Assembly (NCBI GenBank): GCA_020348925.1
Contig: CP070758.1
Location: 4,569,864 to 4,633,863 of the forward strand
Direction: 5' to 3'
From: Gemmatimonadota bacterium
GTDB lineage: Bacteria > JBHIER01 > G020348925
DNA: 64,000 nucleotides
Both the position numbers and the translations under genes were made by a program. Positions 1-29,906 of this stretch are shown here, in pieces. The notes below the pieces were generated by a model. It saw nothing but the letters and a program-made list of their open reading frames with translations. It searched no databases and was not told the DNA's origin. The number at the start of each line of letters is the position of its first letter. Position 1 is the first letter of the stretch.

Positions 1-372
1 GCAGTCTTCACCTATTACGGATCGGCCCACACGGCGGCCGTCAAATACAGCGGTGAATTCAAAGTGGTTTACTTCGCCTTCGGTTACGAAGGGGTGGGAG
101 CCTTCGGGACAGGCAACGCCAGATTGAGATCTTCTCTCATGGACAATATCATCGCCTGGTTTCGGTATGAGCCGCACAAGGGAGATGTCAATGAGGATGG
201 AAACGTCGATATCCTTGATGTGGTCGAGGCCGTAAACATCATTTTAGGGCTGGTGGAACCGACAACCGCTCAATTTTGGGCTGCCGATGTCACACAAGAT
301 GGGAGTATCGACATTCTGGATGTCGTGAACATCGTGAACGTTATTCTCGGGCCAACGGTACCGATACGATAA
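1..372 (+). CDS. Dockerin-bearing secreted protein, C-terminal part
   Basis: The reading frame is open from base 1, so the gene begins outside the window; only the last 123 residues are seen. The final ~65 residues hold two type I dockerin-like calcium-binding repeats, GDVNEDGNVDILDVVEAVN and ADVTQDGSIDILDVVNIVN, each ending in I(I/V)LG. The upstream part (KVVYFAFGYEGVG, then RSSLMDNIIAWF) resembles the end of a glutamine-amidotransferase-like or peptidase-associated domain found in secreted FCB proteins; that assignment is weak. A terminal dockerin normally docks the protein to a cohesin or acts as a C-terminal surface module. No cohesin was noticed in the window. Confidence 0.8.
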   Translation, partial: AVFTYYGSAHTAAVKYSGEFKVVYFAFGYEGVGAFGTGNARLRSSLMDNIIAWFRYEPHKGDVNEDGNVDILDVVEAVNIILGLVEPTTAQFWAADVTQDGSIDILDVVNIVNVILGPTVPIR

Positions 373-569: not shown

Positions 570-2921
570 ATGGTAAACAATTACCTCATCACTGCTATAC
601 GAAACATCAGAAAACACAAAGTTTTTTCATGCATCAATATTACTGGTCTTGCCGTGGGCATGTCGGTCTGTATGCTTATACTCCTATGGGTTCAGGATGA
701 ATTGAGCTTCGACTCGTTTCATGAACATACGGACGATATTTACAGGGTCATCTCTGAGATTCATACAGCCGATCACATGTCTCACAACGCCAGAACTCCC
801 AATCCCCTCGGTCCGATTCTCAAAGAGGACTTCCCCGAAATTGTCAATTTTGCCCGATTTCAGGGGTTCGACGGTTGGCTCGTTCAATCCGGGGACAAAT
901 CCTTTATCAATGACAATCTGGGAACCGCCGATCCGTCCTTTTTCGAAATCTTCTCTTTTCCCTTTCTTCAGGGCGATCCGAAAACGGCACTCCAGGATCG
1001 CTACTCCATTGTCATCACAGAAGGGATGGCAAAAAAATACTTTGGAGACGAAGATCCTATGGGTAAAGTACTCACCATTCACCATGATTACACCGTCACA
1101 GGAATCATAGAAAACGTTCCCGAGAATTCCCACCTCCATTTTGACTGCATTTTTCCCCTAAAAAATATGGAATATTTTTGGGATGAAAATTTTGATGATT
1201 GGGAGCGAATCAAATATTACACTTACGTTCAAGTGCAACCTAAGAGCTCACACAAAATCGTGAGTCAAAAAATATCCAATGTGATAAGGGAAAATTTTCC
1301 ACAATCTAACACGACCGTTTATCTGCAGCCTTTGAAAGACATTCATCTTCGCTCGGACTTTGAATGGGATCTGGACAATTATGCCCAGGGCAACATAACC
1401 TATCTCTATATTTTCGCACTCACGGCACTCTGTATCCTGTTGATCGCCTGCATCAACTTCATGAATCTATCCACAGCCCGATCGGCCAAGCGGGCACAGG
1501 AAGTTGGGATACGAAAGGTCTCGGGGGCACGCAGATTGGACATCGTTCGCCAGTTCTTCGGCGAATCCATCCTCCTGACCTTCACATCCCTACTCTGCGC
1601 CGTGGGTCTGACCTATCTACTCCTGCCTCTATTCAACGACTTGTCGAGCAAGCAGTTGAGTCTGAGGTGCGTCGTCAACGCCGGTTTTTTGATGGGACTT
1701 GCGGCAATTACGGTTGCAACAGGAGTTGTCTCTGGAAGCTACCCTGCTCTGTATCTCTCCAAGTTTCACCCAGCACGGGTATTCAGAGGCATCTCTCGCT
1801 GGGGCACACATACAGGAACCTCTCTCCGAAAGACTCTGGTCATATTCCAGTTTGCTCTGACCATCATCCTCATTATCGGAACAACCGTCATACAGAATCA
1901 ACTCCACTATCTGAAAAATAAAAACCTGGGTTTTACAAAAGACCACATCATTACCTTCGAATCAAGACACATGAATTATGAAGGGTTTCGAAACGAACTG
2001 CTGCAACATCCGAATATTCTGAGCATGACGCAGTCACACGCTCCAAATCGCCAACCATGGGGCGTTACCGGTTTCTACTGGGAGGGAAAAGATTACGATG
2101 AAGATATCATGCTCTATCCTGTGAATGTTGATTATGATTATGTACACACATTCGATATGAGAATGCTTGAAGGTCGTTTCTTTTCAAGAGAATATTCCAC
2201 CGATGCGACACAGGCGGCCATCGTGAATGAAACAGCAGTGAAGGTGATGAACATGGCTGCACCTGTCGGAAAACGTATTTCCCGCGGAGAGCATCAGGCG
2301 ACGATCATCGGGGTTATCAAAGATTTTCATCAAAGCTCCCTGCACAATGAGATAGAACCGCTTATTCTGCGAATTTCCCAGGGCGGTCCTTACATCTGTG
2401 CCAGAATTCACCCCCGAAATGTTTCGAAAACAATTGCCTCTATCGAAACGATATGGAGAAAATATGTGAAGGATTACCCCTTTACCTATGAGTTTCTCGA
2501 TACATCGATCGAGAGGTACTATAAGAGTGAACAAAAAATGTGTGACATATTTGCATATTCCACCCTGCTGGCTATCTTCATCGCCTGCCTCGGGCTCTTT
2601 GGTCTGGCATCCTTCGTGACAGAACAACGAACAAAGGAGATCGGCATTCGTAAAATACTCGGCGCTTCATTTTCCGGGATTGTTTTCCTGCTGACCCGAG
2701 AATTCATTAAATGGGTGCTCATGGCAAACGCCATCGCTTGGCCGATTGCCTACCTGGCCATGACCAGATGGCTGCAAGGCTTCGCCTTTCGAATCAATCT
2801 TGGAATATGGATTTTCATTTTCTCATCGGCAATGACTATACTGATTGCGTTCAGTACAGTGAGTTATCAATCGCTGAAAGCTGCACTGATGAATCCTGTG
2901 AAGAGCTTAAGATATGAATAA
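570..2921 (+). CDS. FtsX/MacB-type ABC permease, array copy 1
   Basis: Predicted inner-membrane permease subunit of a MacB/LolCE-like ABC transporter, 783 residues, without an ATPase domain. The start is placed at ATG 570 (GGAG just upstream), since paralogs begin at the same MxxNYL; an in-frame ATG at 543 would add nine atypical residues. Layout: TM1 ~18-43, periplasmic MacB_PCD-like domain ~45-265, TM2-4 ~275-398, TM5 ~422-442, second periplasmic domain ~445-660, TM6-8 ~660-768. Each half carries the cytoplasmic coupling motif: QEVGIRKVSGA after TM2 and KEIGIRKILGA after TM6. It ends with NPVKSLRYE, the signature tail of this array. Substrate unknown; MacB relatives move peptides, lipoproteins or drugs. 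Confidence 0.92.
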   Translation: MVNNYLITAIRNIRKHKVFSCINITGLAVGMSVCMLILLWVQDELSFDSFHEHTDDIYRVISEIHTADHMSHNARTPNPLGPILKEDFPEIVNFARFQGFDGWLVQSGDKSFINDNLGTADPSFFEIFSFPFLQGDPKTALQDRYSIVITEGMAKKYFGDEDPMGKVLTIHHDYTVTGIIENVPENSHLHFDCIFPLKNMEYFWDENFDDWERIKYYTYVQVQPKSSHKIVSQKISNVIRENFPQSNTTVYLQPLKDIHLRSDFEWDLDNYAQGNITYLYIFALTALCILLIACINFMNLSTARSAKRAQEVGIRKVSGARRLDIVRQFFGESILLTFTSLLCAVGLTYLLLPLFNDLSSKQLSLRCVVNAGFLMGLAAITVATGVVSGSYPALYLSKFHPARVFRGISRWGTHTGTSLRKTLVIFQFALTIILIIGTTVIQNQLHYLKNKNLGFTKDHIITFESRHMNYEGFRNELLQHPNILSMTQSHAPNRQPWGVTGFYWEGKDYDEDIMLYPVNVDYDYVHTFDMRMLEGRFFSREYSTDATQAAIVNETAVKVMNMAAPVGKRISRGEHQATIIGVIKDFHQSSLHNEIEPLILRISQGGPYICARIHPRNVSKTIASIETIWRKYVKDYPFTYEFLDTSIERYYKSEQKMCDIFAYSTLLAIFIACLGLFGLASFVTEQRTKEIGIRKILGASFSGIVFLLTREFIKWVLMANAIAWPIAYLAMTRWLQGFAFRINLGIWIFIFSSAMTILIAFSTVSYQSLKAALMNPVKSLRYE

Positions 2922-3011
2922 CCTTCGGAACTTACAGAACTCTATGAAGGAGGGTGCAAGAATTCATTCTCCGTTCACCTTTTTCATTTTACCAGCCTGT
3001 TGGGAGAAGTG

Positions 3012-3349
3012 ATGTTTAAAAACATACTGAAGTCGGCTCTTCGAAATATCGCCAAAAATAAGTTGTTTTCGTTTATCAGTGTTGTCGGTCTCTCTCTGGC
3101 TATTGGCTGTTTTACCGTTTTGTTTATCTTTGTCGATTTTTGGAACAGCATGGACTCTTTTCATGAGAATGTTGACGAGATTTTCCTGGTAGAAATAGTG
3201 ATCGATCATATCGCTAGTAACGGTGTTTTCACAGATAGCCAAGGCTGCAAGATCGAACCCGGTTGATACGTTGAGTAGTGAATGATGGTTCGTGAAACAT
3301 AATTTATGGCTTTCCACACCAATCCTGTGAGAGTCTGAGATATGAATGA
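3012..3349 (+). pseudogene. Internally deleted FtsX/MacB-type permease relic
   Basis: A GGGAG site precedes ATG 3012, which opens a normal permease N-terminus (MFKNILKSALRN, then TM1 and DSFHENVDEIF). Homology fades after ~65 residues and the frame stops at 3266. About 55 bases later, at 3321-3349, a copy of the universal permease 3' end reappears: NPV, then LRYE and a stop, with one base missing compared with intact copies. Both ends of a tenth array member therefore survive and roughly 2.1 kb of the middle is gone. The 84-residue ORF could still give a one-TM peptide, but nothing suggests a function. Confidence 0.8.
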
Positions 3350-3438
3350 TAATCAAAGGTTGAACAAAGGAGAACATGGACTGAGGAATCAGATTTTTTC
3401 AGTCATACATCTCCCCTTTTCCTTTGTTTGGAGAAACC

Positions 3439-5757
3439 ATGTTCAATAATTACCTGAAAATTGCCATCCGCAATGTGCTGAAAAATAAAGTTTTTTCCTG
3501 TATCAACAGTACCGGTCTGGCAATCGGGATCGCCTGCTGCCTGTTGATCGCACTCTGGGTGCTCGATGAGTTGAACGTCGATCGATTTCACAAAGATGGA
3601 GATCACATCTATCAAGTACTCGTCCGAAGCGGCGGAGAGAATGTTAGGACAACACCAACACCACTTGGGCCAACACTTCAGGAGGAATGCCCTGAAATTA
3701 CCGACTGGACACGCTATCACTGGCTCTTTGAAAGGGCGATGCTCACGTATGATGATAAATCATACTATGAAGACGGGCTCAGGATTGCAGACCCCTCCTT
3801 TTTCAGTATCTTTACATTTCTCTTCCTCAGAGGCGATCCTCAAACGGCATTGGAAGATCCATATTCGGTCGTTATGACCAAAGCCACGGCAGAAAAGTAT
3901 TTCTCCTACGAAGATCCCATTGGAAAAACCGTGACTCTGAATCATGAACATAAGCTCACCGTCACCGGGGTCATTGAAAACATCCCGCGTAATTCCACGC
4001 TTGCATTCGACATGGTCATTCCCATGGCCTTCCGAATACATTCAGCAGGAAGCTGGTACATGGATTGGAACAATTGCTTCCCCATCACATTCATCAAACT
4101 TCAACCCGAAGCCAATATCGAAGACCTCCATCGTAAAATGGCCGACATCATTCCAACCCACGGCGGAGGAGAACAGGTTGGGCTGACTGTGTTGCCCTTT
4201 GTACAACGACATTTTTCATTCTATTCCGATATCACATACGTCTATATATTTTCAGCAATTGCGTTTCTTATTCTGGTCATTGCCTGCTTCAATTTTATGA
4301 ATCTATCGACCGCTCGATCGACCAATCGCGCCAGAGAAATAGGGATGCGGAAGATTTCAGGAGCCTTTCGAATCCATATCATCGTTCAATTCATGGGTGA
4401 ATCTCTGTTCTTGTCACTTGCGGCACTCATGGGTGCACTGATCTTGGTCGCCTTCCTGCTCCCGTATTTCAACTCGCTGACCGGGAAAGCGCTTGCGTTG
4501 AGCAACGGAGCACTGATTCCTTTCGCTGTTGCTTTTTCCTGTATCACGGGCGTTGCTGCAGGTATCTATCCTGCCTTCGTACTTTCCGGCTTCCAGCCGT
4601 ACAAGGTGCTCAAGGGCGACCTCACATTAGGTGTAAAAAGCTCCACATTAAGAAAATCGCTGGTCGTCATTCAATTTTCACTATCGATCATGTTGATCAT
4701 ATGTATGCTGGTGATTTATAAACAGCTCGACTACATCCGGAACAAAGATATCGGTTATGATAAAGAATGGCTGGTCAAGATTCCGTTACGGGGGGGAAGC
4801 CAACAGTACTATGACGTTCTCAAAAGTGAATTTCTGCATGAGACGAGCATACTCGGCATCACCGGGACTCAGGCGAGCCTGCCGTATCTGTCCTGGCACC
4901 AAGGGGGTTTCCACTGGAAAGGAAAGGATCCCAACGAAAACATATCCATCTCCTGTAATATGATCCAGTACGACTTCGTCGAAACTTTCCAGATCGAACT
5001 GCTTGAGGGCAGAGATTTTTCCCATGAGCATGCTGTGGATGCAACATCGAGCTGCCTGATCAACGAGGAGATGATGAACATCATGGGCCTTGAAACGGCC
5101 GAGAATGCTATACTGAGTCAGACCAATCAGGATTACACCATCATCGGCGTGATGAAAAATTTCCATTTCCATACATTCGGAAACCGTATCGAACCACTCG
5201 TCCTGAGGTTCACTCCCGGAGTCAATTACATGTATATCCGGATTGCTCCTGAAGCCTTTTCTTCAACCCTCGCCTTCATCAGGGACACCTGGAACAGCAC
5301 TGTACCGAATTACCCTTTTGCGTGCAGTTTTCTCAATGATGAATTGAACAGAGGGTATCGAAATATCGAAAGGGCTGGTACACTGCTGAACGGATTTGCT
5401 TTGCTGGCGGTTGTTATTTCATGCCTCGGTCTGTTCGGCCTGGTTTCTTTCACGGTCCAACAACGGACGAAAGAAATAGGCATCCGTAAAGTCTTGGGAG
5501 CTTCTGTAGTGAGAGTCATTACGCTTTTAACAAAAGATTTCATGATGTGGATACTCCTGGCCAATATAACTGCCTGGCCCGCGGCCTGGTACGCCGCGAA
5601 CAAGTGGCTGCAGAATTTCGCCTACCGTATCGATATGAACCTGTGGGTGTTCATTACGGCGGGTGCAATCGCGGTGGCCGTTGCCATGGTAACGGTGAGC
5701 TACCAATCGATCAAGGCGGCCCTGGCCAATCCCGTAAATAGTTTGAGAACCGAATAA
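3439..5757 (+). CDS. FtsX/MacB-type ABC permease, array copy 2
   Basis: A 772-residue two-half permease. ATG 3439 behind GGAGA is preferred over an in-frame TTG at 3424, because MFNNYLKIAIRN aligns with the paralog starts. Coupling motifs are REIGMRKISGA and KEIGIRKVLGA; the tail is NPVNSLRTE, with Thr where most copies have Tyr. The first periplasmic domain (TRYHWLFE, DPSFFSIFTF, HNSTLxFDMV-type sequence) groups it with the copies at 10740 and 15549, a shorter subfamily of ~775 residues. The stop is only 14 bp from the next start, so the two are probably co-transcribed. Substrate and ATPase partner unknown. Confidence 0.92.
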   Translation: MFNNYLKIAIRNVLKNKVFSCINSTGLAIGIACCLLIALWVLDELNVDRFHKDGDHIYQVLVRSGGENVRTTPTPLGPTLQEECPEITDWTRYHWLFERAMLTYDDKSYYEDGLRIADPSFFSIFTFLFLRGDPQTALEDPYSVVMTKATAEKYFSYEDPIGKTVTLNHEHKLTVTGVIENIPRNSTLAFDMVIPMAFRIHSAGSWYMDWNNCFPITFIKLQPEANIEDLHRKMADIIPTHGGGEQVGLTVLPFVQRHFSFYSDITYVYIFSAIAFLILVIACFNFMNLSTARSTNRAREIGMRKISGAFRIHIIVQFMGESLFLSLAALMGALILVAFLLPYFNSLTGKALALSNGALIPFAVAFSCITGVAAGIYPAFVLSGFQPYKVLKGDLTLGVKSSTLRKSLVVIQFSLSIMLIICMLVIYKQLDYIRNKDIGYDKEWLVKIPLRGGSQQYYDVLKSEFLHETSILGITGTQASLPYLSWHQGGFHWKGKDPNENISISCNMIQYDFVETFQIELLEGRDFSHEHAVDATSSCLINEEMMNIMGLETAENAILSQTNQDYTIIGVMKNFHFHTFGNRIEPLVLRFTPGVNYMYIRIAPEAFSSTLAFIRDTWNSTVPNYPFACSFLNDELNRGYRNIERAGTLLNGFALLAVVISCLGLFGLVSFTVQQRTKEIGIRKVLGASVVRVITLLTKDFMMWILLANITAWPAAWYAANKWLQNFAYRIDMNLWVFITAGAIAVAVAMVTVSYQSIKAALANPVNSLRTE

Positions 5758-5771
5758 CCGCAGGAGGAGCT

Positions 5772-8165: not shown

Positions 8166-8271
8166 AAAGATGAGAATAATGACGAGTTCAGGAATATGGA
8201 GACTGAGACTCAGGAACTTCAAACAAACATTTCATTGCGACCGGAATCTCTAAGCTGGACAAGGGGGAACT

Positions 8272-10674: not shown

Positions 10675-10739
10675 CAAAATCCTTAGTAATACATTACTGT
10701 GAAGAGCACTGGTTGTATTTCTGAAATAGGGCATCTTTT

Positions 10740-13076: not shown

Positions 13077-13163
13077 AAATATGAGATGTCAAATGTGTCT
13101 AATCTTCGAGAACCGTTTTACATTTCACGTCCACGTCTGACGTTTCACATAGAGGAGCAAATC

Positions 13164-15512
13164 ATGTTTAAAAACTACCTAAAAATCGCATTGAGGAACA
13201 TGGAACGGCACAAAGGATATTCTTTGATCAACATCTTTGGTCTTGCCGTTGGTATGAGCTGCATGATTCTCATACTGTTATGGATTCAGGATGAACTCAG
13301 TTATGATAGGTTTCATAAGAATGCTAAGGAGATTTATCGACTCGTTCCCCAGGAAAGTGGAATACGATATGCGGTATCTCACGCACCGATTGGTCATACC
13401 TTAAAAGAAGATTATTCTGAAATAGTAAGTGCCTCACGAGTTAGTATTGGTGAGGATCGGTCTCTTTTAAAATATCAGGATAAACGATTCGAGCAAAATG
13501 GGAAAATGGTTGATCCTGATTTTTTGAAGATCTTTTCATTTTCATTTGTCAAAGGTAATCCCGATACCGCTCTAAATGATCCAACTGCGATAGTCCTTTC
13601 AGAGAGTCTTGCAAAAAAGCTTTTCGATAATAAAGAGCCAATCGGAGAAATTATTCACGTTGATGATCATATTGTTTGTAAAGTAACTGGTGTTTTTGAG
13701 AATATCCCACATAACTCTCATTTGCAATTCGATTTTTTACGTCCATTTGTGGAAGGGGAGTGGTCTCAAAATTGGAATGATTGGTCTTATTACACCTACA
13801 TTCAACTTCAAAAAAACAGTTCGATCTTAGAAATGAATCAAAAGATAAATGATTGTTTTAAAAAACATAAATCACCGGCTAAGAACATCGCAGAATACAC
13901 AATCCAACCTTTAAATCGAATCCATCTTTATTCGAACTTCAAGTTTGATGTCGAAGGAAATAGTGATATTCAATATGTGTATATCTTTACAATCATTGCG
14001 ATATTTATTTTGCTGATCGCCTGCATCAATTTCATGAACCTTTCCACAGCTCGTTCTGCTAATCGAGCCAAAGAGATTGGAATCAGAAAAGTTGTTGGCT
14101 CGGCAAGACTCCAAGTAATGAAGCAATTTTTTGGTGAATCAATTCTTATAGCCTTTTTGGCCTTTATCATCGCTATATTTTTAGTAGTGTTTTTACTGCC
14201 CATATTCAATGACTTCTCCGGGAAGCACTTGTCATTCAATTACCTTGAGTATCCTCTTATCCTGAGCTCCATTGCTATCATTATTATAACTGGGATTGTC
14301 GCCGGTAGTTATCCAGCAATACTGCTCTCATCTCATAAACCAATAAATGTGTTAAGAACGACAACGAAATTAGACAGCAAGGGTGAGAATTTTAGAAAGA
14401 TATTGGTCGTCACCCAATTTACACTTTCAATTGGCTTAATAATAAGCACAATGGTCGTGGCAAACCAATTTAATTTTATGAAAAATGCTAAATTGGGCTT
14501 TGACAAAGAAAATTTGCTATATCTACAATTAAGAGGGATTAACAGAGAAAAAATTGAATCGTTGAAAACCGAATTACTTCGCCACCCCAATATCGTAAAT
14601 GCCTCAGTATCAAATTCCCTTCTCAATGAAATGTTGAATGGAACTTCCGGTGCGGAATGGGAAGGTAAGGCGGAAGATAAAAGGGTACAAATGCAGTTTA
14701 TTGCAGTCGACTATGATTACATGGATACGTTCAAAATGCAAATGGCGCAAGGAAGATTTTTTTCGAAAGAATTTGCAACTGATATTAAGGAAGCTGTGAT
14801 ATTAAATCAAGCTGCAATAAAGGCAATGGAACTGGAATCTCCAATTGGAAAACGGTTCAAATGTTTTTGGAAACCCGATGCAAGAATAATTGGAGTGATA
14901 AAAGACTTTCATTACAGACCTCTGCGTGAAGAATTGAAACCTATTATTTTGGGAGTTGTGAGTGATCGCATCAATTACCTTACGATCAGAACAAAGCCGA
15001 TCCAGTCCGGTGTTTCGGATCTGATTCACTTCTTAGAGAACAAGTGGAAAGAATATAATTACGATTATCCTTTTGAATTCCATTTTTTGGACGACACAAT
15101 TGACGAACTTTATGCAGCAGAACAGCGGATGAGCACAATCTATAAATACTTTACTTTTCTTGCAATATGCATTGCTTGTCTTGGACTGTTTGGATTGGCT
15201 TCCTATTCAGCCGAACGACGCACCAAAGAAATCGGTATCCGAAAAGTAATGGGAGCTTCAGTACCGGGAATTATAGGCATGCTAACCAAAGATTTTTTAA
15301 AATGGGTTTTATTTTCCAACATCATCGCCTGGCCCATCGCCTGGTATGCCATGAATACATGGCTGCAGAATTTTGCATATCGAGTGAATATTGGAATCTG
15401 GACATTTATTTTATCTGCGTCATTGGCATTAATCATTGCACTGGTTACGGTGAGTTATCAATCGATGAAAGCAGCTCTGGCCAATCCGGTGGAGAGTTTA
15501 AGCTATGAATAG
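13164..15512 (+). CDS. FtsX/MacB-type ABC permease, array copy 6
   Basis: A 782-residue permease. The start is set at ATG 13164 behind AGAGGAG, giving MFKNYLKIALRN; the frame is open back to an ATG at 13086, but those 26 residues are unlike any paralog. Coupling motifs are KEIGIRKVVGS and KEIGIRKVMGA. The tail is NPVESLSYE (Ser replaces Arg). This is the most A+T-rich member by eye. The last ~80 bases (TVSYQSMKAALANPV) are nearly the same as in neighbouring copies, while the periplasmic domains differ strongly. The next gene starts 36 bp downstream. Confidence 0.92.
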   Translation: MFKNYLKIALRNMERHKGYSLINIFGLAVGMSCMILILLWIQDELSYDRFHKNAKEIYRLVPQESGIRYAVSHAPIGHTLKEDYSEIVSASRVSIGEDRSLLKYQDKRFEQNGKMVDPDFLKIFSFSFVKGNPDTALNDPTAIVLSESLAKKLFDNKEPIGEIIHVDDHIVCKVTGVFENIPHNSHLQFDFLRPFVEGEWSQNWNDWSYYTYIQLQKNSSILEMNQKINDCFKKHKSPAKNIAEYTIQPLNRIHLYSNFKFDVEGNSDIQYVYIFTIIAIFILLIACINFMNLSTARSANRAKEIGIRKVVGSARLQVMKQFFGESILIAFLAFIIAIFLVVFLLPIFNDFSGKHLSFNYLEYPLILSSIAIIIITGIVAGSYPAILLSSHKPINVLRTTTKLDSKGENFRKILVVTQFTLSIGLIISTMVVANQFNFMKNAKLGFDKENLLYLQLRGINREKIESLKTELLRHPNIVNASVSNSLLNEMLNGTSGAEWEGKAEDKRVQMQFIAVDYDYMDTFKMQMAQGRFFSKEFATDIKEAVILNQAAIKAMELESPIGKRFKCFWKPDARIIGVIKDFHYRPLREELKPIILGVVSDRINYLTIRTKPIQSGVSDLIHFLENKWKEYNYDYPFEFHFLDDTIDELYAAEQRMSTIYKYFTFLAICIACLGLFGLASYSAERRTKEIGIRKVMGASVPGIIGMLTKDFLKWVLFSNIIAWPIAWYAMNTWLQNFAYRVNIGIWTFILSASLALIIALVTVSYQSMKAALANPVESLSYE

Positions 15513-15548
15513 ACCAAACTAACAAAACCACGCCAACGGAGAGAGATC

Positions 15549-17870
15549 ATGTTCCATAATTACTTCAAAGTAGCCTTGCGAAATATCCGTAGGAATACAA
15601 AATACTCATTGATCAACTTGACCGGACTGGGTATGGGTATCGCCTGTTCGCTTTTCATTTTTGTCTACGTTCAGGACGAGTTTAGCTACGACCGGTTTCA
15701 TAACGATATCGGAACCGTCTATCAGGTTCTGTCCCACACCGACGTAGGGAACAATGCGGTTACTCCGGTGCCTCTGGGCCCGGTGTTGAAGGACGAATTT
15801 CCCGAAATAGAAAAGATGACCAGGTACCACTGGATGTGGGGGGAAACCGTATTGAGTCATGGCGACAAGACCTTCGTCGAAAACGGGATTCGCCTCGTCG
15901 ATCCCTCCTTTTTCAGCATCTTTGCCTTTCCTTTCCTCAAAGGGGATCCTCAAACAGCATTGGACGACATCCATTCTATTGTCATCAGCGAGGAAACTGC
16001 CCGTAAGTATTTTGCCCATGGGGATCCCATCGGGAAAATACTTACTATGAACCACGAGCATGAGTTCGTCGTTACCGGAGTGATTGAAAATATTCCTCAC
16101 AATTCGACGCTTCAATTCGATATGGTAATCCCCATTGAATTCAACATAACTCACTTCGACAGCTGGTACCAGGACTGGAATAATCTCTTCGTTTACACGT
16201 TTATTCAGTGCAGGAAAACGAGCCGGGTCGATGTGGTCAATGACAAGATTGCCGCAACGGTCACCAGACATGGGGGTCAAGAGAATCTAACCCTCTCGGT
16301 ACTACCCTTTGCGGATCGGCACTTTTTCTTCTTCGCCGAGAAACAGACAGTATACGCCTTCTTGACCATTGCAGTTTTTATTCTCTTCATCGGATGTTTC
16401 AATTTCATGAACCTGGCAACAGCCCGGTCCACCAAGAGGGCCGCGGAAATTGGAATGAGGAAAATCGTAGGAGCGCATCGTAAACAGATCGTATATCAAT
16501 TTCTGGGAGAATCCCTTCTTTTGACATTGATGGCAGGCTGCATCGCCGTCTTGATTTTCATTTTTCTGTTCCCACTCTTTCGAAATATCACCGGCAAAGA
16601 GATTGACATATCGTATGCTTTTGTGCTCTGGTGTTCCTCGGCGGTCACACTCTTCACGGGTTTTGCCGCAGGAAGCTATCCCGCCTTTTTTCTTTCAAAC
16701 TTCAAGGATCTCAATGTCTTGAGAGGCAATTATGCATCAGGCTCCAGAGGACAATGCTTGAGAAAAACTATTGTAACGGTTCAATTCACACTGTCGATTC
16801 TCCTTATGCTGGGCATGTGTGTCGTGTACCAACAGACACAATACATCCTGAACAAAGATATTGGATATAATAGAGACAATATTATCAGTATCCCCATGGG
16901 AGGTGGAAGCGAAAAGTACTTTCAAACCTTTAAAAATGAATTGCTCAAGGATCCTGAAATTTTAGGGGTAACAGGTACGGCAGCGGCCCTGCCTTTTGTG
17001 AACTGGCGGATTCATGGGTTCCAGTGGCAGGGAAAAGACCCCGACGCAAAGATATCCATCAGTTTCAATGCGGTTGATTATGATTTCTTTGAGACGCTGC
17101 AAATCAATATTGTAGATGGCGGGAGTTTCACCAAAGAGTCCTTTTCCGAAAACACATTTTCTCTCATCGTCAATGAAGAAATGGCGAAGCTGATGAGATT
17201 GAATTCGGTCATAGGCGCTTCCCTGACCCGAGGGGAACAGTCAGGAACAGTCATTGGCGTTGTTGAAAATTTTCATTTCAATCCCCTCCGCTATCATATC
17301 GAGCCTCTTGTTCTCCAACTCGATCCCAGAGAAATTGATAATGTCCTGATTCGTGTTCAACCGGAAAACCTCTCCTCCACCCTCTCTTTCATTGAGGATA
17401 CATGGAAAGAAGTTATTCCCCACTACCCCTTTCAATACAGTTTACTCGATGAAGATTATGAGAGAAATCTATTCAGCCTGAAAAGAACTGGATATTTGCT
17501 TGCCGCTTTCTCTATTTTAGCCATTATCATTTCCTGTCTCGGTCTCTTCGGTCTATCGTCCCATGCCGCCGAACAGCGGACAAAGGAGATCGGCATACGT
17601 AAAGTACTCGGTGCCTCAATTTTCAGTATCGTACGGTATATATCGAAAGAATTAGTGATCCTTGTGGTGATCGCAAATTTACTCGTCTGGCCTGTGGCGT
17701 ATTATGTCATGAGCACATGGCTGCGAAACTTCGCATACAGAACCAGTATCGAATGGTGGATCTTTCTGCTGGCCGGAGGGTCGGCTGTATGTATCGCGAT
17801 TTTGACAGTGAGCGTTCAATCGGTGAAGGCGGCAGTGGCGAATCCGGTGAAAAGTCTGAGATATGAGTAA
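15549..17870 (+). CDS. FtsX/MacB-type ABC permease, array copy 7
   Basis: A 773-residue permease of the short subfamily (TRYHWMWGE, DPSFFSIFAF, NSTLQFDMVIP), close to copy 2 in the first periplasmic domain. CGGAGAGAG precedes ATG 15549. Coupling motifs are AEIGMRKIVGA and KEIGIRKVLGA; the tail is NPVKSLRYE. Its stop codon lies 16 bp before the ATG of the beta-propeller gene, so permease, propeller and metallo-beta-lactamase-fold genes look like one transcriptional unit. This is the only array member with close non-permease partners, hence the best place to look for a functional clue. Confidence 0.92.
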   Translation: MFHNYFKVALRNIRRNTKYSLINLTGLGMGIACSLFIFVYVQDEFSYDRFHNDIGTVYQVLSHTDVGNNAVTPVPLGPVLKDEFPEIEKMTRYHWMWGETVLSHGDKTFVENGIRLVDPSFFSIFAFPFLKGDPQTALDDIHSIVISEETARKYFAHGDPIGKILTMNHEHEFVVTGVIENIPHNSTLQFDMVIPIEFNITHFDSWYQDWNNLFVYTFIQCRKTSRVDVVNDKIAATVTRHGGQENLTLSVLPFADRHFFFFAEKQTVYAFLTIAVFILFIGCFNFMNLATARSTKRAAEIGMRKIVGAHRKQIVYQFLGESLLLTLMAGCIAVLIFIFLFPLFRNITGKEIDISYAFVLWCSSAVTLFTGFAAGSYPAFFLSNFKDLNVLRGNYASGSRGQCLRKTIVTVQFTLSILLMLGMCVVYQQTQYILNKDIGYNRDNIISIPMGGGSEKYFQTFKNELLKDPEILGVTGTAAALPFVNWRIHGFQWQGKDPDAKISISFNAVDYDFFETLQINIVDGGSFTKESFSENTFSLIVNEEMAKLMRLNSVIGASLTRGEQSGTVIGVVENFHFNPLRYHIEPLVLQLDPREIDNVLIRVQPENLSSTLSFIEDTWKEVIPHYPFQYSLLDEDYERNLFSLKRTGYLLAAFSILAIIISCLGLFGLSSHAAEQRTKEIGIRKVLGASIFSIVRYISKELVILVVIANLLVWPVAYYVMSTWLRNFAYRTSIEWWIFLLAGGSAVCIAILTVSVQSVKAAVANPVKSLRYE

Positions 17871-17886
17871 ACACCGAGGCATTATC

Positions 17887-18819
17887 ATGAACAGATTTTT
17901 ATCCATTTTATATTTATTGCTTTTAACGCCAGTGACAGTGTGTCCGCAGGCAAAGGAATTTCCAAAACTCACTGGTTTTTATCTTGGCCAAACACCGCCG
18001 GGTAAAACCCCGGTTGCGTTTCCGTTTGATTATATGCTGGAGGGGTATCGACTTCACAGTGCACCGGTCTTCACACCCGACGGCAGAGAGGTCTATTTCT
18101 CTGCAATGGATTTCAGTATTCGATACTCCGAAAAAATATTTGTCATGAAAATGATCGATAGTACCTGGACTCCTCCCCAGATCGCTTCGTTTTCAGGAGA
18201 TTCTTTTGATGGCTCACCTTCAATATCCAGAGATGGTAAATATTTGTTTTTCTCTTCGGCAAGGAAACTGGATGAAGACGGGATGAATGAAACCGGGCAT
18301 AGAAATATCTGGTATGTGACAAGAATGGGCCAAGAGTGGAGTTCACCAAAACCACTCAGTTATAGGACAACAGGATGGGAAAACGGGAGCGATCTTTCAG
18401 AACGGGGAAATCTTTTTTTCGACTCGTCCGACATTTATTCAATAAAATTTCCTCCGGATGAAAAATACACCGCTGAAAAATTAGGGAGTGCCATAAACTC
18501 CAGCGCAACCGAACTACATCCATGTGTTGCATCGGATGAACGTTTCATTGTCTTTTATTCAAGCAGACCAGGTCATTTTGGAGAAAGAGGAGGTGATTTA
18601 TACATCAGTTTTCGAAATAACGACGGAACATGGAAACAGGCAATAAACATTGGGAAACAATTCAACAGGGGACATCTCTCGACCAGTTTTCCTCGCCTCT
18701 CGCCCGACGGGAAATATTTTTTCTTTCTCAAGCTCATAGCTGTCCCCTGGCAGTGCGAGGTGTTCTGGGTCTCGGTGGATGCGCTCACTGATTTGGACAA
18801 ACAGTCAGATAGGAACTGA
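17887..18819 (+). CDS. Secreted PD40/TolB-like beta-propeller protein
   Basis: A 310-residue exported protein. ATG 17887 (CGAGG upstream) starts a signal peptide (MNRFLSILYLLLLTPVTVC); an earlier ATG at 17863 overlaps the permease stop and would give charged residues before it. Three or more WD40-like PD40 blades are visible: PVFTPDGREVYFSA, PSISRDGKYLFFSS and PRLSPDGKYFFFLK. The C-terminus ends in CEVFWVSVDALTDL, a common ending of this family. Such propellers usually mediate protein or ligand contacts in the periplasm; no catalytic residues are evident. The 2 bp gap to the next gene shows tight coupling. Confidence 0.85.
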   Translation: MNRFLSILYLLLLTPVTVCPQAKEFPKLTGFYLGQTPPGKTPVAFPFDYMLEGYRLHSAPVFTPDGREVYFSAMDFSIRYSEKIFVMKMIDSTWTPPQIASFSGDSFDGSPSISRDGKYLFFSSARKLDEDGMNETGHRNIWYVTRMGQEWSSPKPLSYRTTGWENGSDLSERGNLFFDSSDIYSIKFPPDEKYTAEKLGSAINSSATELHPCVASDERFIVFYSSRPGHFGERGGDLYISFRNNDGTWKQAINIGKQFNRGHLSTSFPRLSPDGKYFFFLKLIAVPWQCEVFWVSVDALTDLDKQSDRN

Positions 18820-18821
18820 AC

Positions 18822-19679
18822 ATGAGATTCCTTATTCTACTATTACTTTTATGTAATGTTATTCTATGCGTCCCTTTCGAAATCAGAAGCCAAGAAAAAC
18901 CGATCGATCCCGGAAGCATTTCGTTCACGATTCTTTACAATGATGTGCCCTTGAACGAATCGTTTATCGGCGATCAGGGTTTTTCATGTTTCATTGAGAT
19001 CCCTGACCATGCCTTTTTGTTCGATGCGGGCAGAATCGCTGAGCATCTTGCTCGAAATACAGAGAAATCTGGGATAGATTGTTCCAAGATAGATTTTATT
19101 TTCATTTCTCATCTTCATTCCGATCACATCGGAGGATTACCCGGTATTATTGAGAAATGTGACAGACCCCTATTATATCTTCCGTTTTCATTTCCCAAAA
19201 CGCAAACTGCGAAAGGACGGACGTTTATTGTTGAAAGACTTGATAGAGTAAAACGGTATGTTTCTGATGTTGTCGAGATAAAGGAACCGGTCAAACTGAA
19301 CGAGTATTTCTATTCAACAGGAATGATTGAGGATCGAACATACGAGCAGGCGTTCATCATCACGACAACGAAAGGATTGATGATAGTAACAGGATGTTCC
19401 CATCCGGGAATTGTAGAAATTGTTCGGCGTGCCAAAACATTCATGAAGAGAGAAGTATATTTTGTAATGGGTGGATTTCACCTCGCTGCTACAGATTCCG
19501 AAGAAGTAAAAAGTATTGCCACTGAATTAAGGGGATTAACAAAATTTATAGCTCCGTGTCACTGCACCGGTGAAGCAGCACAAGAAACATTCAGATCTGT
19601 TTTTAGGGAAGATTACATCGAAATAAAAACGGGTCTCACGTTCAAAGTTGTCGCGAAGAACGAAAATGTAATTGATTAA
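18822..19679 (+). CDS. Exported metallo-beta-lactamase-fold hydrolase
   Basis: A 285-residue protein with a signal peptide or membrane anchor (residues ~1-23) and an MBL-fold domain. The metal-binding motif HxHxDH is complete at H97, H99, D101 and H102 (SHLHSDHIGG), and later ligand candidates occur in TGCSHPGI and GGFHLA. The pattern, with TGCSH and a C-terminal PCHCTG, resembles the family annotated as dihydropteroate/MptE-like MBL hydrolases. Most members have unknown substrates and are cytosolic, so the signal peptide is notable. It directly follows the propeller gene, suggesting a shared extracytoplasmic role. Confidence 0.87.
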   Translation: MRFLILLLLLCNVILCVPFEIRSQEKPIDPGSISFTILYNDVPLNESFIGDQGFSCFIEIPDHAFLFDAGRIAEHLARNTEKSGIDCSKIDFIFISHLHSDHIGGLPGIIEKCDRPLLYLPFSFPKTQTAKGRTFIVERLDRVKRYVSDVVEIKEPVKLNEYFYSTGMIEDRTYEQAFIITTTKGLMIVTGCSHPGIVEIVRRAKTFMKREVYFVMGGFHLAATDSEEVKSIATELRGLTKFIAPCHCTGEAAQETFRSVFREDYIEIKTGLTFKVVAKNENVID

Positions 19680-19680
19680 A

Positions 19681-19785
19681 AAGTATTACAAAATAAAAAA
19701 TTACGGCGAAAAAGGAGATCTGAGGGTATTCTGGGTATCTGCAAAAATCATTGACGAAATTAGAACAAAAGAAAACAAGGGATAA
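19681..19785 (+). pseudogene. C-terminal relic of a second PD40 propeller gene
   Basis: Just after the MBL-fold gene, a frame without a start ends in YGEKGDLRVFWVSAKIIDE and stops at 19783. This matches the C-terminal signature of PD40 propeller proteins (GDxYWVSAxIIEEL) and parallels EVFWVSVDALTDL of the intact gene at 17887. Nothing further upstream is left, because the intact MBL gene occupies that sequence. It implies a former second propeller gene, perhaps from a duplicated permease/propeller unit. Confidence 0.5.
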
Positions 19786-20249
19786 TTATCTTGCAGGAGT
19801 ATCACAATGAAATTTTCTGGTTCCACCAACATGTAGGCGGTCGTAACTTGAATACTTTTCAATGAAAAGTACTCTTGATCGCGACAGCCATAGAGATTTC
19901 TATTGATGGCTTTGGGTTCATTATTCATGCTTTCGAGAAAGGGTATATCATTTGTTCGCTTCAGCTTTGATGAAAATACTTTTTTCATTAACGATTATGA
20001 ATCCGATCATTTTCACTCGTTCGAACGGAAATATCTGTATTTATTTTTTTCCGACATAGCACAACTCTCTTTTGATAAAATCTGATTTTATTAAAGATTT
20101 ATTGAATACGAGGAGGCTTGGAGTTCACTTTCAAACCGAAAACTTAAGCACCGGCTCTTTATCGGAAGGACCGTATCAATAATTTTCAATTGGAATTGTA
20201 TCACCTAATGAAAAGGATTCTGTATCGAAAATGACGACAGGAGAAAAGC
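19786..20249 (+). other. Gap with decayed coding traces, no intact gene
   Basis: This A+T-rich stretch has ribosome-binding-site-like sequences without proper genes. GCAGGAG near 19795 precedes an ATG at 19807 that runs only nine codons, and AGGAGG at 20111 is followed by a TTG frame that stops after nine codons. A 60-codon ORF (19903-20085) lacks a binding site and recognisable features. The region most likely holds remains of lost genes plus the leader of the next permease. No convincing promoter was found. Confidence 0.4.
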
Positions 20250-22661
20250 ATGTTTAAAAATTACCTGAAAACGGCTTACCGGAATCTATTTAAGACCAAG
20301 ATATTTTCTCTCATCAACATCCTTGGTCTGGCCATGGGCATGACCATCTGCCTCCTCATTTTGCATTACGTCAATTATGAGAAAAGCTACGATAGATTTC
20401 ATCCTCATCATGAGCGCATTTACCGTCTGAGATATGAACGTACCGACGAACAAGGTCAGAGTGTCCGTTTTGCCTCCTGCTGTCCGCCTGCAGCGCCCCG
20501 AATCCGCGACCGGTATCCGGAAGTGGAAAAGATCGGCCGCCTCTTACGTTATCGTGCCAGCGTGTCACACGGCGACACGAATTTTTTTGAGGAAAGAATG
20601 TATTTTGCGGAACCCGATGTTTTCGAAATCCTGAAATTCAGCTTCATCGAGGGTGACCCAACGCAAAGCCTTCAAGATCCAAACAATGCCTTTGTCTCTC
20701 AGACGACGGCTAAAAAATATTTTGGAGACGAGTATCCCATAGGAAAAACGATCAGTGTCGACAAAAAGGAAGACTATCAAATTGTCGGTCTCTTCGAGGA
20801 TATACCACACAATTCACACCTGAAGTTCGATATTCTCCTTCCCTTCAAAAAACTGGAAACCCTTTTCGGTCCCGAGTATACCGAAGCCTGGGGACATACG
20901 GGTTCGTATACGTATCTCAGAGTGAAGTCCGGCACCGATCCCTCTCTTTTTGAAAAAAAATTACTCGGTTTGGTGGAAGCCGAATGTCCCTGGCTGAAGG
21001 AGTACAAAATGATTATGACGCTGCCGATGCAGCATCTCACGGATATTCATCTCACATCCCATTTCATGCAGGAATATGAGGCCAACGGCAATCGTGAGTC
21101 AGTCAATTTCTTAATGCTCGTTGCTCTATTCATTATCGTCATGGCCTGGGTAAATTATATGAACCTCTCAACCGCACGGGCATTGAACCGTGCAAAAGAG
21201 GTTGGTTTGCGAAAAGTCGTGGGAGCCAACCGGCGGCAGTTGATGATCCAATTCTTCATGGAAACAACGCTTATCAATATGGTGGCCCTGATTATGGCCC
21301 TGGTGTTGGTCACATTGTCCATATCCTTCTTCAGTCACCTCACCAGTATTCCCGTCTCCTTTCGTATCTGGACCCAGAGCTGGTTTTTTCCAGCATTGCT
21401 TCTGATGTTCGTCGTCGGGATATTTTTATCCGGTATCTATCCTGTTGCAGCGATGTCCTCCTTCGAACCGATACGCGTCTTGAAAGGAAAAATCGGAAAC
21501 GCAACCAAAGGATTGAGTTTGCGGAAGGGTTTGGTCGTGTTTCAGTTTGTCATGGCCCTGATTTTGATTACGGGCACACTCACTGTGTATCGTCAAATTT
21601 CGTTCATGAGAAGCCAGGATCTGGGATTTTCAATGGATCAAACCCTAGTGGTAAAAGCTCCCAGGGTCAGAAACGATTCCTATGCCGAGACGTTTCTTTC
21701 ATTCAAAGAGACATTGCTGCAAAATACACGTCTATCCAAAATCAGTCATGTGACTGAGGTCCCGGGAAGGCAGATCTATTGGGATGCCGGTGGAATTCAT
21801 CGAGCAGGTACGGACATCAGTCAGAGTAAGAACTACCAGATCGTCGGCGTGGATTATGACTTTGCAGATGTATTCGATCTCCAATTCAGCAGCGGAAGAA
21901 ACTTCTCAAAAGAATTTTCCACTGATTCCGATGCACTCATTCTCAACGAAACGGCTGTGAAATGGATGGGGTTTGAAAATGCGGAAAGTGCTTTAGGGCA
22001 GCAGGTCGATTACTGGGGGGATATCTACACAATTATAGGCGTACTGAAAGATTACCATCAACAATCCCCAAAGGAAGCCTTCGAACCGACCATTTTCCGG
22101 TTTATGCCGACCGGCAGAGACGTTCGAGGGCTCTTTGCCATAAAACTGAAAACGCAAAACATGAGGGAAATCATACGCCTCGTCCAGTCACAATACGATG
22201 CCTTCTTCCCAGGCAATCCGTTTGACTATTTTTTCCTGGACGAGTATTATGATCAGCAATATCATTCAGATGAATTATTTGGACAAGTATTCACTCTGTT
22301 TTCTTTCTTGGCGGTATTTATTACGGCTCTGGGAATATTCGGATTATCCTCTTTCAGTGTTGCCCAAAGGACAAAAGAGGTGGGAATCCGAAAAGTGGTG
22401 GGAGCCAGTGTTCTTCGAATATTTTTGTTGCTAACGAGAGATTACCTTCTTTTATTGAGTCTATCATTTCTGATCTCGTTTCCGATAGTATTCTTTGGAT
22501 TAAGATACTGGCTTCATGGATTTGCATTTCGAATGAGTCTCAACGGCTGGCTCTTTCTTAGTCCATTCCTTCTTACCGCCTGTATCACTCTCTTCACAGT
22601 AAGTTACCAGTCAATATATGCAGCCTTAGCGAATCCTGTGGAGAGCCTAAAATATGAATAG
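20250..22661 (+). CDS. FtsX/MacB-type ABC permease, array copy 8
   Basis: An 803-residue permease, the longest of the array, behind ACAGGAG. Coupling motifs are KEVGLRKVVGA and KEVGIRKVVGA, with Val for Ile in both halves; the TM2 motif reads WVNYMNLSTARAL instead of the usual CINFMNLSTARS. TM6 has TALGIFGLSSFSVAQR where most copies have ACLGLFGL. The tail is NPVESLKYE. It is therefore a more distant branch than copies 1-7. The 570-base gap before it, with relics, marks a break in the array, and it may be transcribed separately. Confidence 0.91.
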   Translation: MFKNYLKTAYRNLFKTKIFSLINILGLAMGMTICLLILHYVNYEKSYDRFHPHHERIYRLRYERTDEQGQSVRFASCCPPAAPRIRDRYPEVEKIGRLLRYRASVSHGDTNFFEERMYFAEPDVFEILKFSFIEGDPTQSLQDPNNAFVSQTTAKKYFGDEYPIGKTISVDKKEDYQIVGLFEDIPHNSHLKFDILLPFKKLETLFGPEYTEAWGHTGSYTYLRVKSGTDPSLFEKKLLGLVEAECPWLKEYKMIMTLPMQHLTDIHLTSHFMQEYEANGNRESVNFLMLVALFIIVMAWVNYMNLSTARALNRAKEVGLRKVVGANRRQLMIQFFMETTLINMVALIMALVLVTLSISFFSHLTSIPVSFRIWTQSWFFPALLLMFVVGIFLSGIYPVAAMSSFEPIRVLKGKIGNATKGLSLRKGLVVFQFVMALILITGTLTVYRQISFMRSQDLGFSMDQTLVVKAPRVRNDSYAETFLSFKETLLQNTRLSKISHVTEVPGRQIYWDAGGIHRAGTDISQSKNYQIVGVDYDFADVFDLQFSSGRNFSKEFSTDSDALILNETAVKWMGFENAESALGQQVDYWGDIYTIIGVLKDYHQQSPKEAFEPTIFRFMPTGRDVRGLFAIKLKTQNMREIIRLVQSQYDAFFPGNPFDYFFLDEYYDQQYHSDELFGQVFTLFSFLAVFITALGIFGLSSFSVAQRTKEVGIRKVVGASVLRIFLLLTRDYLLLLSLSFLISFPIVFFGLRYWLHGFAFRMSLNGWLFLSPFLLTACITLFTVSYQSIYAALANPVESLKYE

Positions 22662-22730
22662 CACAAGAGACGAATGATGTCGCATAAATTTTCACCGATG
22701 TTGTTGTGAACTTTAAGGAGTGGCGAGAGC

Positions 22731-25130
22731 ATGTTAAAAAATTACTTTACGGTTGCGTTTAGAAACATGAAAAGGCACAAGGGTTATTCCTTCATCAATA
22801 TTGCCGGCCTTTCCATAGGAATCGCCTGCTGTGTTTTCATTTTGCTCTTTGTTCGATTGGAATTGAGTTATGATAGCTATCATCCTGATGTTGATCGCAT
22901 CTTCAGGGTCGGTCTCATGAAAGAGACTGAGAAGGGTAGAACAGCAGAGGAATCGAACTTGATCCCCATGGGCCCTGCCTTAAAGGAAAACTATCCTCAG
23001 GTAGAATACGCCGGGCGTGTGTGTATCGCTTTCAGTCAACCGACCGTCCAATACCAAAACAAAATATTTAAAGAAAAGAGCATATTTAAAGCGGATTCCG
23101 AACTCTTCAGTATTTTTCATATCCCTTTTCTCCAGGGGGATCCACGTACCGCCCTCGACCACATCAATACCGCAGTCCTTACCGAGTCTTTTGCGAAAAA
23201 GTACTTCGGTCAGGAAGATCCCATGGGGAAAATGATCCGGATCAATTCAAGCGATTTTATGGTCACAGGAATTGCCGAAAATCCTCCGCACAACACTCAT
23301 CTGCAGTTAGACCTTTTCCTATCATATACGATCGCTGATGAGCCTGAGTGGATGAGCGGCTGGCATGCTTTGGCTACGCCGGCTTTCACTTACATCAAGG
23401 TGAAGCCTGGAATTCATCCTGATGAATTTGAGGATCTGATACGCCATGTACCGCAGACCTATATCGGGGAACAGCTGGAAGAGATGGGAGCCGAATATAC
23501 GAATTTCCTCCAGCCGGTCAGAGATATTCACCTCTATTCTCTTTCTGCGCAAGGAAAGAGACCGGCTCGCAGCCTCATATATACATATATCTTCTCCGTA
23601 GTGGGTGTGCTTATACTTCTGATCGCCGGTATGAATTTCATGAATCTCTCGACCGCGCGGTCCGCCAACCGCTCATCTGAAGTGGGGATCCGTAAAGTTG
23701 TGGGCGCACATCGAGGTCAGCTTGTCGGTCAATTTCTCGGGGAATCCCTTGTTACATCATTCACGTCGCTCGCGATAGCCGTCACGGGTGTGGGTCTGTT
23801 GTTACCCTTTTTTAACAATTTCGCAGGGACACAGTTTACCTCCTCCGCACTTTTAGAACCAATGATCATAACTATCCTCCTCTTCTTAGCTCTGTTTATA
23901 GGAATTGTAGCTGGCATATACCCTGCATTCTTTCTGTCGGCATTTCGACCGATATCGATTCTTCAAGGCTCTCTGAGAGCCGGCTCTCGAGCTTTGATGA
24001 TGCGGAAAATCCTGGTAGTCGGCCAGTTTGCCATATCGATCATACTCATCATCGCTACGCTTATTGTTTACCACCAGCTTGACTATATGAAAAATCAGCC
24101 CCTCGGCTTTGAGAAGGAACGAAAGCTTGTACTTCCTCTCAGTAGCTGGGATATTATTGAAGACAACTACGATCACGTCAAAGACCAGTTTCTGCAACAT
24201 CCTTCCATAACTGCCGCCACGGCCACATCCGGCGTTCCGGGTAAAAGTATCAACCGTCTCTGGATGTATCCTTCCGAAGAAGAATCTGAAAATGGACAAA
24301 CTCCGATGATTCTTCGCTGCGATCAAGATTTCATCTCTGTCTACGGTATCGAAATGGTAGCCGGGAGACCGTTTCGCAAGGAGATGGAGACAGATAGACT
24401 CAGCGGAAACTTCATCATAAATGAGGCGGCCGTCACCTCCTTTGGCTGGAACTCGCCTGAAGAAGCGGTTGACAGACAAATTATGGTCGGCAGTCGGCGC
24501 ACTCCCTTTCAAGTTCTTGGGGTTGTGAAAAATTTCCACTGGTACGGCTTGCAGAACGCTATCGAGCCTGTGGTTCTTCGGTTCGTGTCTATGTTTCGGT
24601 ACATCACGCTCAACGTCAATACTGACAATCTTCCGGAGACACTCGCGTTTATTGAAAAGAAATATGGGGAACTGTTCCCGAATCAAGTCTTTGAATATTT
24701 CTTTGTCGATAGGGATTTTGACAAGCAGTACAGCTTTGAAGAGCGTCTGGGTCGAATTTTTCGCCTATTTAGTTTCCTGGGAATTTTCATTGCCTGCCTG
24801 GGCCTTTTTGGAATGACAGCCTTCATAGCGCAGCAGCGGAAAAAAGAGATCGGTATTCGTAAGGTGTTTGGGGCTCAGGTTCCGGGGATACTCCTCCTGT
24901 TAGGCACAGAATTCTTGAAATGGGTATGCGTTGCCAATATCATAGCCTGGCCATTCGCCTATTACGCCGGACAAAAATGGCTCAACAATTTTGCATACCG
25001 TATCTCTCTAAGCGTGTCGACCTTCATCTCAGCAGGGGTACTCGCGATATGTATTGCTCTGTTGACTGTAAGCTATCAATCGATAAAAAGTGCTCTGGCC
25101 AATCCCGTAGAGAGTTTGAGGTATGAATAA
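22731..25130 (+). CDS. FtsX/MacB-type ABC permease, array copy 9
   Basis: A 799-residue permease with a strong AAGGAG ahead of ATG 22731. N-terminal MLKNYFTVAFRN is followed by a TM1 with a segment rich in Cys and Val. Coupling motifs are SEVGIRKVVGA and KEIGIRKVFGA; the tail is NPVESLRYE. The TM2 segment reads IAGMNFMNLSTARS. It ends the array: the next gene is small and unrelated. Its layout is that of copy 1, and again no ATPase gene is adjacent. Confidence 0.92.
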   Translation: MLKNYFTVAFRNMKRHKGYSFINIAGLSIGIACCVFILLFVRLELSYDSYHPDVDRIFRVGLMKETEKGRTAEESNLIPMGPALKENYPQVEYAGRVCIAFSQPTVQYQNKIFKEKSIFKADSELFSIFHIPFLQGDPRTALDHINTAVLTESFAKKYFGQEDPMGKMIRINSSDFMVTGIAENPPHNTHLQLDLFLSYTIADEPEWMSGWHALATPAFTYIKVKPGIHPDEFEDLIRHVPQTYIGEQLEEMGAEYTNFLQPVRDIHLYSLSAQGKRPARSLIYTYIFSVVGVLILLIAGMNFMNLSTARSANRSSEVGIRKVVGAHRGQLVGQFLGESLVTSFTSLAIAVTGVGLLLPFFNNFAGTQFTSSALLEPMIITILLFLALFIGIVAGIYPAFFLSAFRPISILQGSLRAGSRALMMRKILVVGQFAISIILIIATLIVYHQLDYMKNQPLGFEKERKLVLPLSSWDIIEDNYDHVKDQFLQHPSITAATATSGVPGKSINRLWMYPSEEESENGQTPMILRCDQDFISVYGIEMVAGRPFRKEMETDRLSGNFIINEAAVTSFGWNSPEEAVDRQIMVGSRRTPFQVLGVVKNFHWYGLQNAIEPVVLRFVSMFRYITLNVNTDNLPETLAFIEKKYGELFPNQVFEYFFVDRDFDKQYSFEERLGRIFRLFSFLGIFIACLGLFGMTAFIAQQRKKEIGIRKVFGAQVPGILLLLGTEFLKWVCVANIIAWPFAYYAGQKWLNNFAYRISLSVSTFISAGVLAICIALLTVSYQSIKSALANPVESLRYE

Positions 25131-29043: not shown

Positions 29044-29045
29044 GC

Positions 29046-29906
29046 TCAATCCCTGAGATGTCGACCCGTCAGATTTAAAAAGACCCCTTCGAGGTCAGGA
29101 GTGTCCAAGCGAAACCGAAGAAGATCCCCTTCTCCCTGAAGCCGGGTCAGCTCTGCTATGGGTTCATCCGTTTCGATACGAATTTCACCACCTGTCCGCT
29201 CGGCAATGACGACGCTCTTCCCACCGTGGGTATTGATGAGCCCTTGGACGGTGTCGAGGGCCAACAGCTTCCCGTGGTCGATGATACCCACCCGGTCGCA
29301 CAGTCTTTGTGCTTCTTCCATGTAGTGGGTGGTGTAAACGATCGTACGGCCTTCCACCCGCATCACTTCTATCTTCTCAAAGATGGCGTTGCGCGATTGG
29401 GGATCAACACCGACCGTGGGCTCATCCAGAAGAAGAAGCGGCGGATCGTGGATGAGAGCAATCGCCAAATTCAACCGTCTTTTCATTCCCCCGGAATAGG
29501 TTTTGGCTCTGTCGCGACATCGTTCCCTGAGATCGACGAAGTCCAGGCACCACGCAATACGATCTTTCAGTCTTTTTCCTGTAAGTCCCTGGATCTTGCC
29601 GAAAAATGTCAGGTTTTCCTCTCCCGAAAGTTCCTCATAAATCGCCAGTGTCTACGGGGCCACACCGATCTGTGCTCGCACCTCGGCTCGAATCGGTCGA
29701 CCTGATCCATTCAGTTCGATACTCCCAGCATCAGGTTCCATAAGCCCCACAGCCATATTGACTGTCGTCGTTTTCCCGGCTCCGTTTGGTCCCAAGAGGC
29801 CGAAGACTTCACCCCTTTTGATATCGAGAGTGAGATCGTCGACGGCCACTATTGAGCCAAAGGATTTTTTTACGTTTTGAAATCGTAGCATGTTCTTCAG
29901 TTTCAT
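29046..29906 (-). pseudogene. ABC transporter ATPase with a premature stop
   Basis: A 286-codon ATPase frame of the ABC-2/CcmA-NatA family. Walker A is GPNGAGKTT, the signature-region sequence is TYSGGMKRRLNLA, and Walker B is LLLLDEPTVGVD followed by a downstream switch His (YTTHYMEEA). One in-frame TAG at 29654-29652 interrupts GVAP-TLAIYEELSG, where relatives have Gln, so a CAG to TAG change is likely. The rest of the frame is intact, suggesting recent damage. A second start at 29891 is possible. Partner of the adjacent broken permease. Confidence 0.82.

Follow-up and report, generated by a model that had tools for sequence, protein, structure and literature searches.

Nine ADOP-like permeases in a Gemmatimonadota tandem array may share ATPases encoded elsewhere in the genome

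Gene content of the permease array

The window analysed here, a stretch of 64,000 nucleotides from a Gemmatimonadota genome, carries nine intact genes for duplicated MacB/FtsX (type VII) permeases of 773-808 aa and one internally deleted copy, all on the plus strand (543-25130). P1 (543..2921, 792 aa) contains two MacB_PCD and two FtsX domains; the ATG at 570 is its likely true start, and its closest relative, at 44% identity, comes from KSB1 (L076). P2 (3424..5757, 777 aa) is listed with a TTG start but the ATG at 3439 is likelier. It is followed by P3 (5772..8165, 797 aa), P4 (8272..10674, 800 aa), P5 (10740..13076, 778 aa), P6 (13086..15512, 808 aa), for which the ATG at 13164 better fits the family start, and P7 (15549..17870, 773 aa). 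The array closes with P8 (20250..22661, 803 aa) and P9 (22731..25130, 799 aa). Both PF12704 (MacB_PCD) and PF02687 (FtsX) exceeded their cut-offs in all eight array ORFs scanned with Pfam, and P9 aligned from end to end and matched both profiles in genome-wide scans.

The preliminary description had reported nine intact paralogs and one deleted paralog in the same direction with small gaps. This was confirmed, with gaps of 9-106 nt save two of 502 nt and 2379 nt. The 502-nt gap, between P1 and P2, contains the remnant of the tenth permease (plus strand, about 3012..3282). What survives of it is 60 aa of the N-terminus (about 3012-3191) and, in a different reading frame, 25 aa of the C-terminus (about 3208-3282), the interior being gone; tblastn gave E values down to 2e-12, and a 114-aa frame scored 56 bits against the permease profile. 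The 2379-nt gap, between P7 and P8, was ruled out as the site of the deleted copy, being occupied by two plus-strand genes unrelated to the permeases. One encodes a PD40/WD40-like beta-propeller protein (17863..18819, PF07676), its start overlapping the end of P7 by 8 nt, and the other a metallo-beta-lactamase-fold protein (18822..19679, PF00753) with an N-terminal signal-like segment. The search for relatives of these two genes at other permease loci gave none.

A C10-peptidase gene, whose product has a Por secretion tail, ends shortly before the array begins (window 1-372; L060:7876-11991). Further downstream, the minus strand carries a degraded ABC-2-type transporter (27746-29898), with broken permease frames and an ATPase gene containing an internal TAG, and encodes an 867-aa protein with a Dpy19-like match and TPR (41108-43711).

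Relationship to known permeases

The array permeases belong to the known, broad ADOP-like ("duplicated orphan permease") family, and the family is not new. Their best full-length profile matches were to TIGR03434 (E 1e-74 to 1e-94), which rules out chance as the source of the array, and they share with ADOP a length of ~800 aa, the internally duplicated FtsX/MacB architecture, the many paralogs and the lack of an adjoining ATPase, which only one of 11 paralogs possesses. However, their scores of 248-318 bits do not reach the curated cut-off of 622.3 bits, so they are not members of TIGR03434 as curated. That family was described in Acidobacteria and owes its name to the absence of adjacent ATPases.

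Several known systems are comparable. The darobactin exporter DarB/DarD (NF038008, NF038007) likewise combines a duplicated-type permease with a separate LolD-like ATPase; an HlyD protein is also present in the module described below, and three ATPases of this genome match DarD best. By contrast, the permeases here are unlinked to an ATPase, and both components miss the curated cut-offs (permeases 109-174 of 700 bits for NF038008; ATPases 262-274 of 375 bits for NF038007). Escherichia coli YbbAP (PDB 9ge6, 9ge7) was the best full-length structural match (E 6e-19) and also pairs a permease of ~800 aa with a separate ATPase, but identity is 11%, the TM-score is 0.49 and YbbAP is one system that has a dedicated ATPase. 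MacB and LolCDE share the FtsX and MacB_PCD domains, coupling helices and periplasmic domains. They differ in that MacB combines a single 4-TM unit with a fused ATPase (PMC5985334), whilst LolC and LolE are separate chains of ~400 aa.

ATPases encoded in the genome

No MacB-class ATPase was found within ~12 kb upstream of the array or in the rest of the window, in agreement with the earlier statement that none lies nearby. Only two ABC ATPases are encoded in the window: the broken one of the ABC-2-like transporter (29046-29898) and another that forms part of a fused exporter ORF (54420-56372). The former, 4 kb downstream of the array, was rejected as a partner: it carries the internal TAG, lies on the opposite strand and scores low on the DarD profile. 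It adjoins broken ABC-2-like permease frames, seen in the sequence.

We also searched the whole genome for orphan ATPases and counted them against permeases, as had been proposed. The genome is one contig (C1) of 5.04 Mb, 96% complete by the tool's estimate, so a further ATPase could be missed, and it encodes 11 ADOP-like permeases, nine in the array and two elsewhere. Ten of the 11 have no adjoining MacB-class ATPase, among them the non-array permease at C1:4716779-4719187; the other non-array permease (C1:626799-629213) has a DarD-type ATPase 81 nt upstream. DarD (NF038007) was the best match for exactly three of the MacB-class ATPases classified, at E 1e-78 to 1e-82 on its profile, with the next ATPases at 1e-68 and weaker. 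All other classified MacB-class ATPases were LolD-, MacB- or FtsE-like, each beside its own permeases of ~300-480 aa.

Two of the three DarD-type ATPases are orphans with no permease adjoining. The ATPase at C1:1483136-1483825 is 72% identical to the one paired with the permease at C1:626799-629213, and that at C1:1502922-1503584 is 53% identical to it. All three are indistinguishable as partners of any given permease. The second orphan gene (L068:4923-5585) is flanked by an M28 and an M14 peptidase gene, both encoding dockerin domains. A dedicated ATPase for each permease was thus not found elsewhere: 11 permeases stand against three matching ATPases, one of them already paired.

Across the genomes compared, permeases at E 1e-40 numbered from one to at least 22 per genome and DarD-type ATPases at E 1e-72 only from 0 to 5. 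Four genomes were scanned more loosely by coupling motif, where one permease yields one or two hits; MacB-class ATPases against motif hits were 6/83 in Roseivirga, 6/36 in Fulvivirga, 6/29 in Persicitalea and 6/91 in Spirosoma. With about six ATPases for 29-91 hits each, a private ATPase per permease is excluded in these four genomes.

A conserved regulator, adaptor and ATPase module

The orphan ATPase at C1:1483136-1483825 is encoded directly downstream of an HlyD adaptor gene (1481607-1482857), beside which lie divergent genes for a sigma-54 response regulator and a histidine kinase (1478527-1481245). The proteins of this module were searched against 40 stretches around DarD-type ATPases of other genomes, a non-random sample of the highest-scoring ones. 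Of 32 other genomes, themselves a non-random sample picked for holding a close relative of the permeases, 26 had one such combination of sigma-54 regulator, HlyD and DarD-type ATPase. In 23 of these 26 genomes, ADOP-like permeases lay downstream on the same strand at ~1 kb or less from the ATPase, usually several in a row and in one case after a second ATPase. In the other three, Fulvivirga (L170), Roseivirga (L173) and Persicitalea (L177), no permease adjoins the module, as is also the case in this genome, yet each of the three encodes at least 22 permeases. Near relatives of P8 sit inside ATPase-headed Bacteroidota arrays. Bacteroidota MacB-type systems with permeases of ~400 aa (L190-L193, L195) also occur near a sigma-54 regulator and kinase.

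In this genome a distance of ~3.09 Mb on the contig separates the module from the array, or ~1.95 Mb the other way if it is circular, and there is therefore no genetic link between them. The region upstream of the array yielded no sigma-54-like site, leaving co-regulation of the two loci unsupported. One good-looking sigma-54 site lies upstream of HlyD in the module (L064:13534). Across genomes the motif exceeded threshold in seven of 28 modules against 7% of control segments, a modest enrichment, and a sigma-54 promoter link of the modules as a group is suggestive at best. A 2025 survey found COG0577 permeases in Bacteroidia to be enriched for sigma-54 promoters (PMC12316311). Our literature search, which covered few subscription journals, returned no paper on this module with orphan permeases.

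Taken together, gene content and neighbourhoods suggest that the array permeases probably rely in trans on DarD-type ATPases from other loci, one or a few being shared among them, and work by MacB-type action. The orphan ATPase of the sigma-54/HlyD module is the leading candidate. A shared ATPase with interchangeable permeases, as the preliminary description proposed, has the strongest support of the readings considered: the genome contains orphan DarD-type ATPases, and one is tied to permease arrays by genome comparison, from which we infer the sharing itself. Loose borrowing from the cell's LolD/MacB/FtsE-type ATPases, rather than DarD-type ones in particular, is unlikely. Those ATPases are relatives of the paired DarD-type one, at 37-45% identity, and similar coupling helices occur throughout the type VII superfamily. 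However, they adjoin permeases of their own, and the module with the DarD-type ATPase is the one that adjoins ADOP-like permeases in other genomes.

Coupling helices, structure and paralog history

Two EIGxRK coupling helices per permease, as previously described, were present in all nine array members, the first reading EIVIRK in P5. These helices (57% and 62% identity) and the C-terminal tail (78%) are the most conserved parts of the permeases, and the periplasmic domains are the least conserved large parts (34% and 29%). Among 298 permeases from many phyla, residues R317, E320, K325, G328, E699, R703, K704 and G707 were each at least 99% conserved. MacB carries its major coupling helix between TM2 and TM3, plus a minor one, at the C-terminus, that contacts the ATPase (PMC5985334). 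By analogy, the conserved C-terminal tail of the array permeases may be the counterpart of this minor helix.

The AlphaFold model of P1 (mean pLDDT 78, pTM 0.73, 11 aligned sequences) has eight long membrane helices in two 4-helix halves, each unit having the four TMs and the coupling helix between TM2 and TM3 that define type VII topology (PMC5985334). In a Foldseek search with this model, E. coli YbbAP ranked top and aligned full-length, followed by MacB, LolE and a Porphyromonas permease domain; sequence search found the same Porphyromonas domain and MacB.

This conservation bears on whether the orphan permeases need no ATPase at all, acting for instance as sensors or scaffolds in the envelope. 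Such a role would fit the ten of 11 permeases that lack an adjoining MacB-class ATPase, and the name of TIGR03434 reflects the same absence. It is nevertheless very unlikely, as the key coupling-helix residues are held almost invariant despite only 31-50% identity among the 11 permeases of this genome, and relaxed constraint at the ATPase interface was not seen.

Across the nine array genes, codon positions 1/2/3 were 51/66/33% identical, and fourfold sites at conserved residues were just 30% identical, indicating strong purifying selection on the proteins. Judged by these substitution patterns, the permeases are old paralogs kept by selection. The least probable explanation, a decaying cluster of redundant and mostly unexpressed copies, has the one deleted copy in its favour but conflicts with nine of ten genes being intact at saturated synonymous divergence under strong constraint at codon positions 1 and 2.

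A recent local tandem duplication of the whole array was unsupported, as its members fall in several clades interleaved with other phyla. The tree groups P2, P5 and P7; P4 and P6; and P3 with the two non-array copies, including the ATPase-paired one; P1, P8 and P9 are separate, and some node supports are low. No clear conserved pattern was found when the gene order of array members was compared with other phyla.

The array is not unusual, since long arrays and high copy numbers occur in many phyla; the rarity implied by the preliminary description was wrong. The scan of our genome collection returned at least 594 permease relatives. Equally long arrays, with nine permeases in 22 kb, occur in a Flavobacteriaceae genome (L102) and in Mucilaginibacter (L092), and the ADOP-like family reaches tens of copies, with long arrays, in Bacteroidota, KSB1, Aminicenantes and other phyla. 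Dyadobacter genomes have been described with 28 and 33 copies (PMC11573002).

Discussion

Each array permease is a single chain of two 4-TM halves with two periplasmic domains and two coupling helices. If these permeases do draw on shared DarD-type ATPases, ATP hydrolysis in the cytoplasm would be converted into movement of the periplasmic domains by MacB-type mechanotransmission. The HlyD protein of the module suggests a tripartite exporter, and several TolC-family genes are present elsewhere in the genome; together with HlyD and a TolC-type duct, the movement would then export envelope substrates or extract them, and specificity would differ from permease to permease. The shared ATPase would mostly be supplied by the conserved module, which in this genome is a locus separate from the array. 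Physical sharing, tripartite assembly and cargo are all inferred here from gene content and comparison. Substrate diversification, also put forward in the preliminary description, is compatible with the contrast between variable periplasmic domains and conserved coupling helices, although such a contrast is non-specific evidence.

A wider reading, which we offer tentatively, is that, in many phyla, a conserved, regulated module acts in trans as the motor for a large and exchangeable repertoire of ADOP-like permeases; the sensor would set total pump activity and the permeases specificity. ATPase sharing is known among ABC importers, for example with MsmK (PMC4519317), and type VII sharing would extend it beyond sugar importers.

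Duplicated orphan permeases form a large family of unexplained function, and the genomes of many environmental bacteria carry tens of copies each. With a candidate shared ATPase, adaptor and regulator now named, the question is narrowed to a few testable genes. If true, the proposed role of the module would give these long-unexplained orphan permeases their partner.
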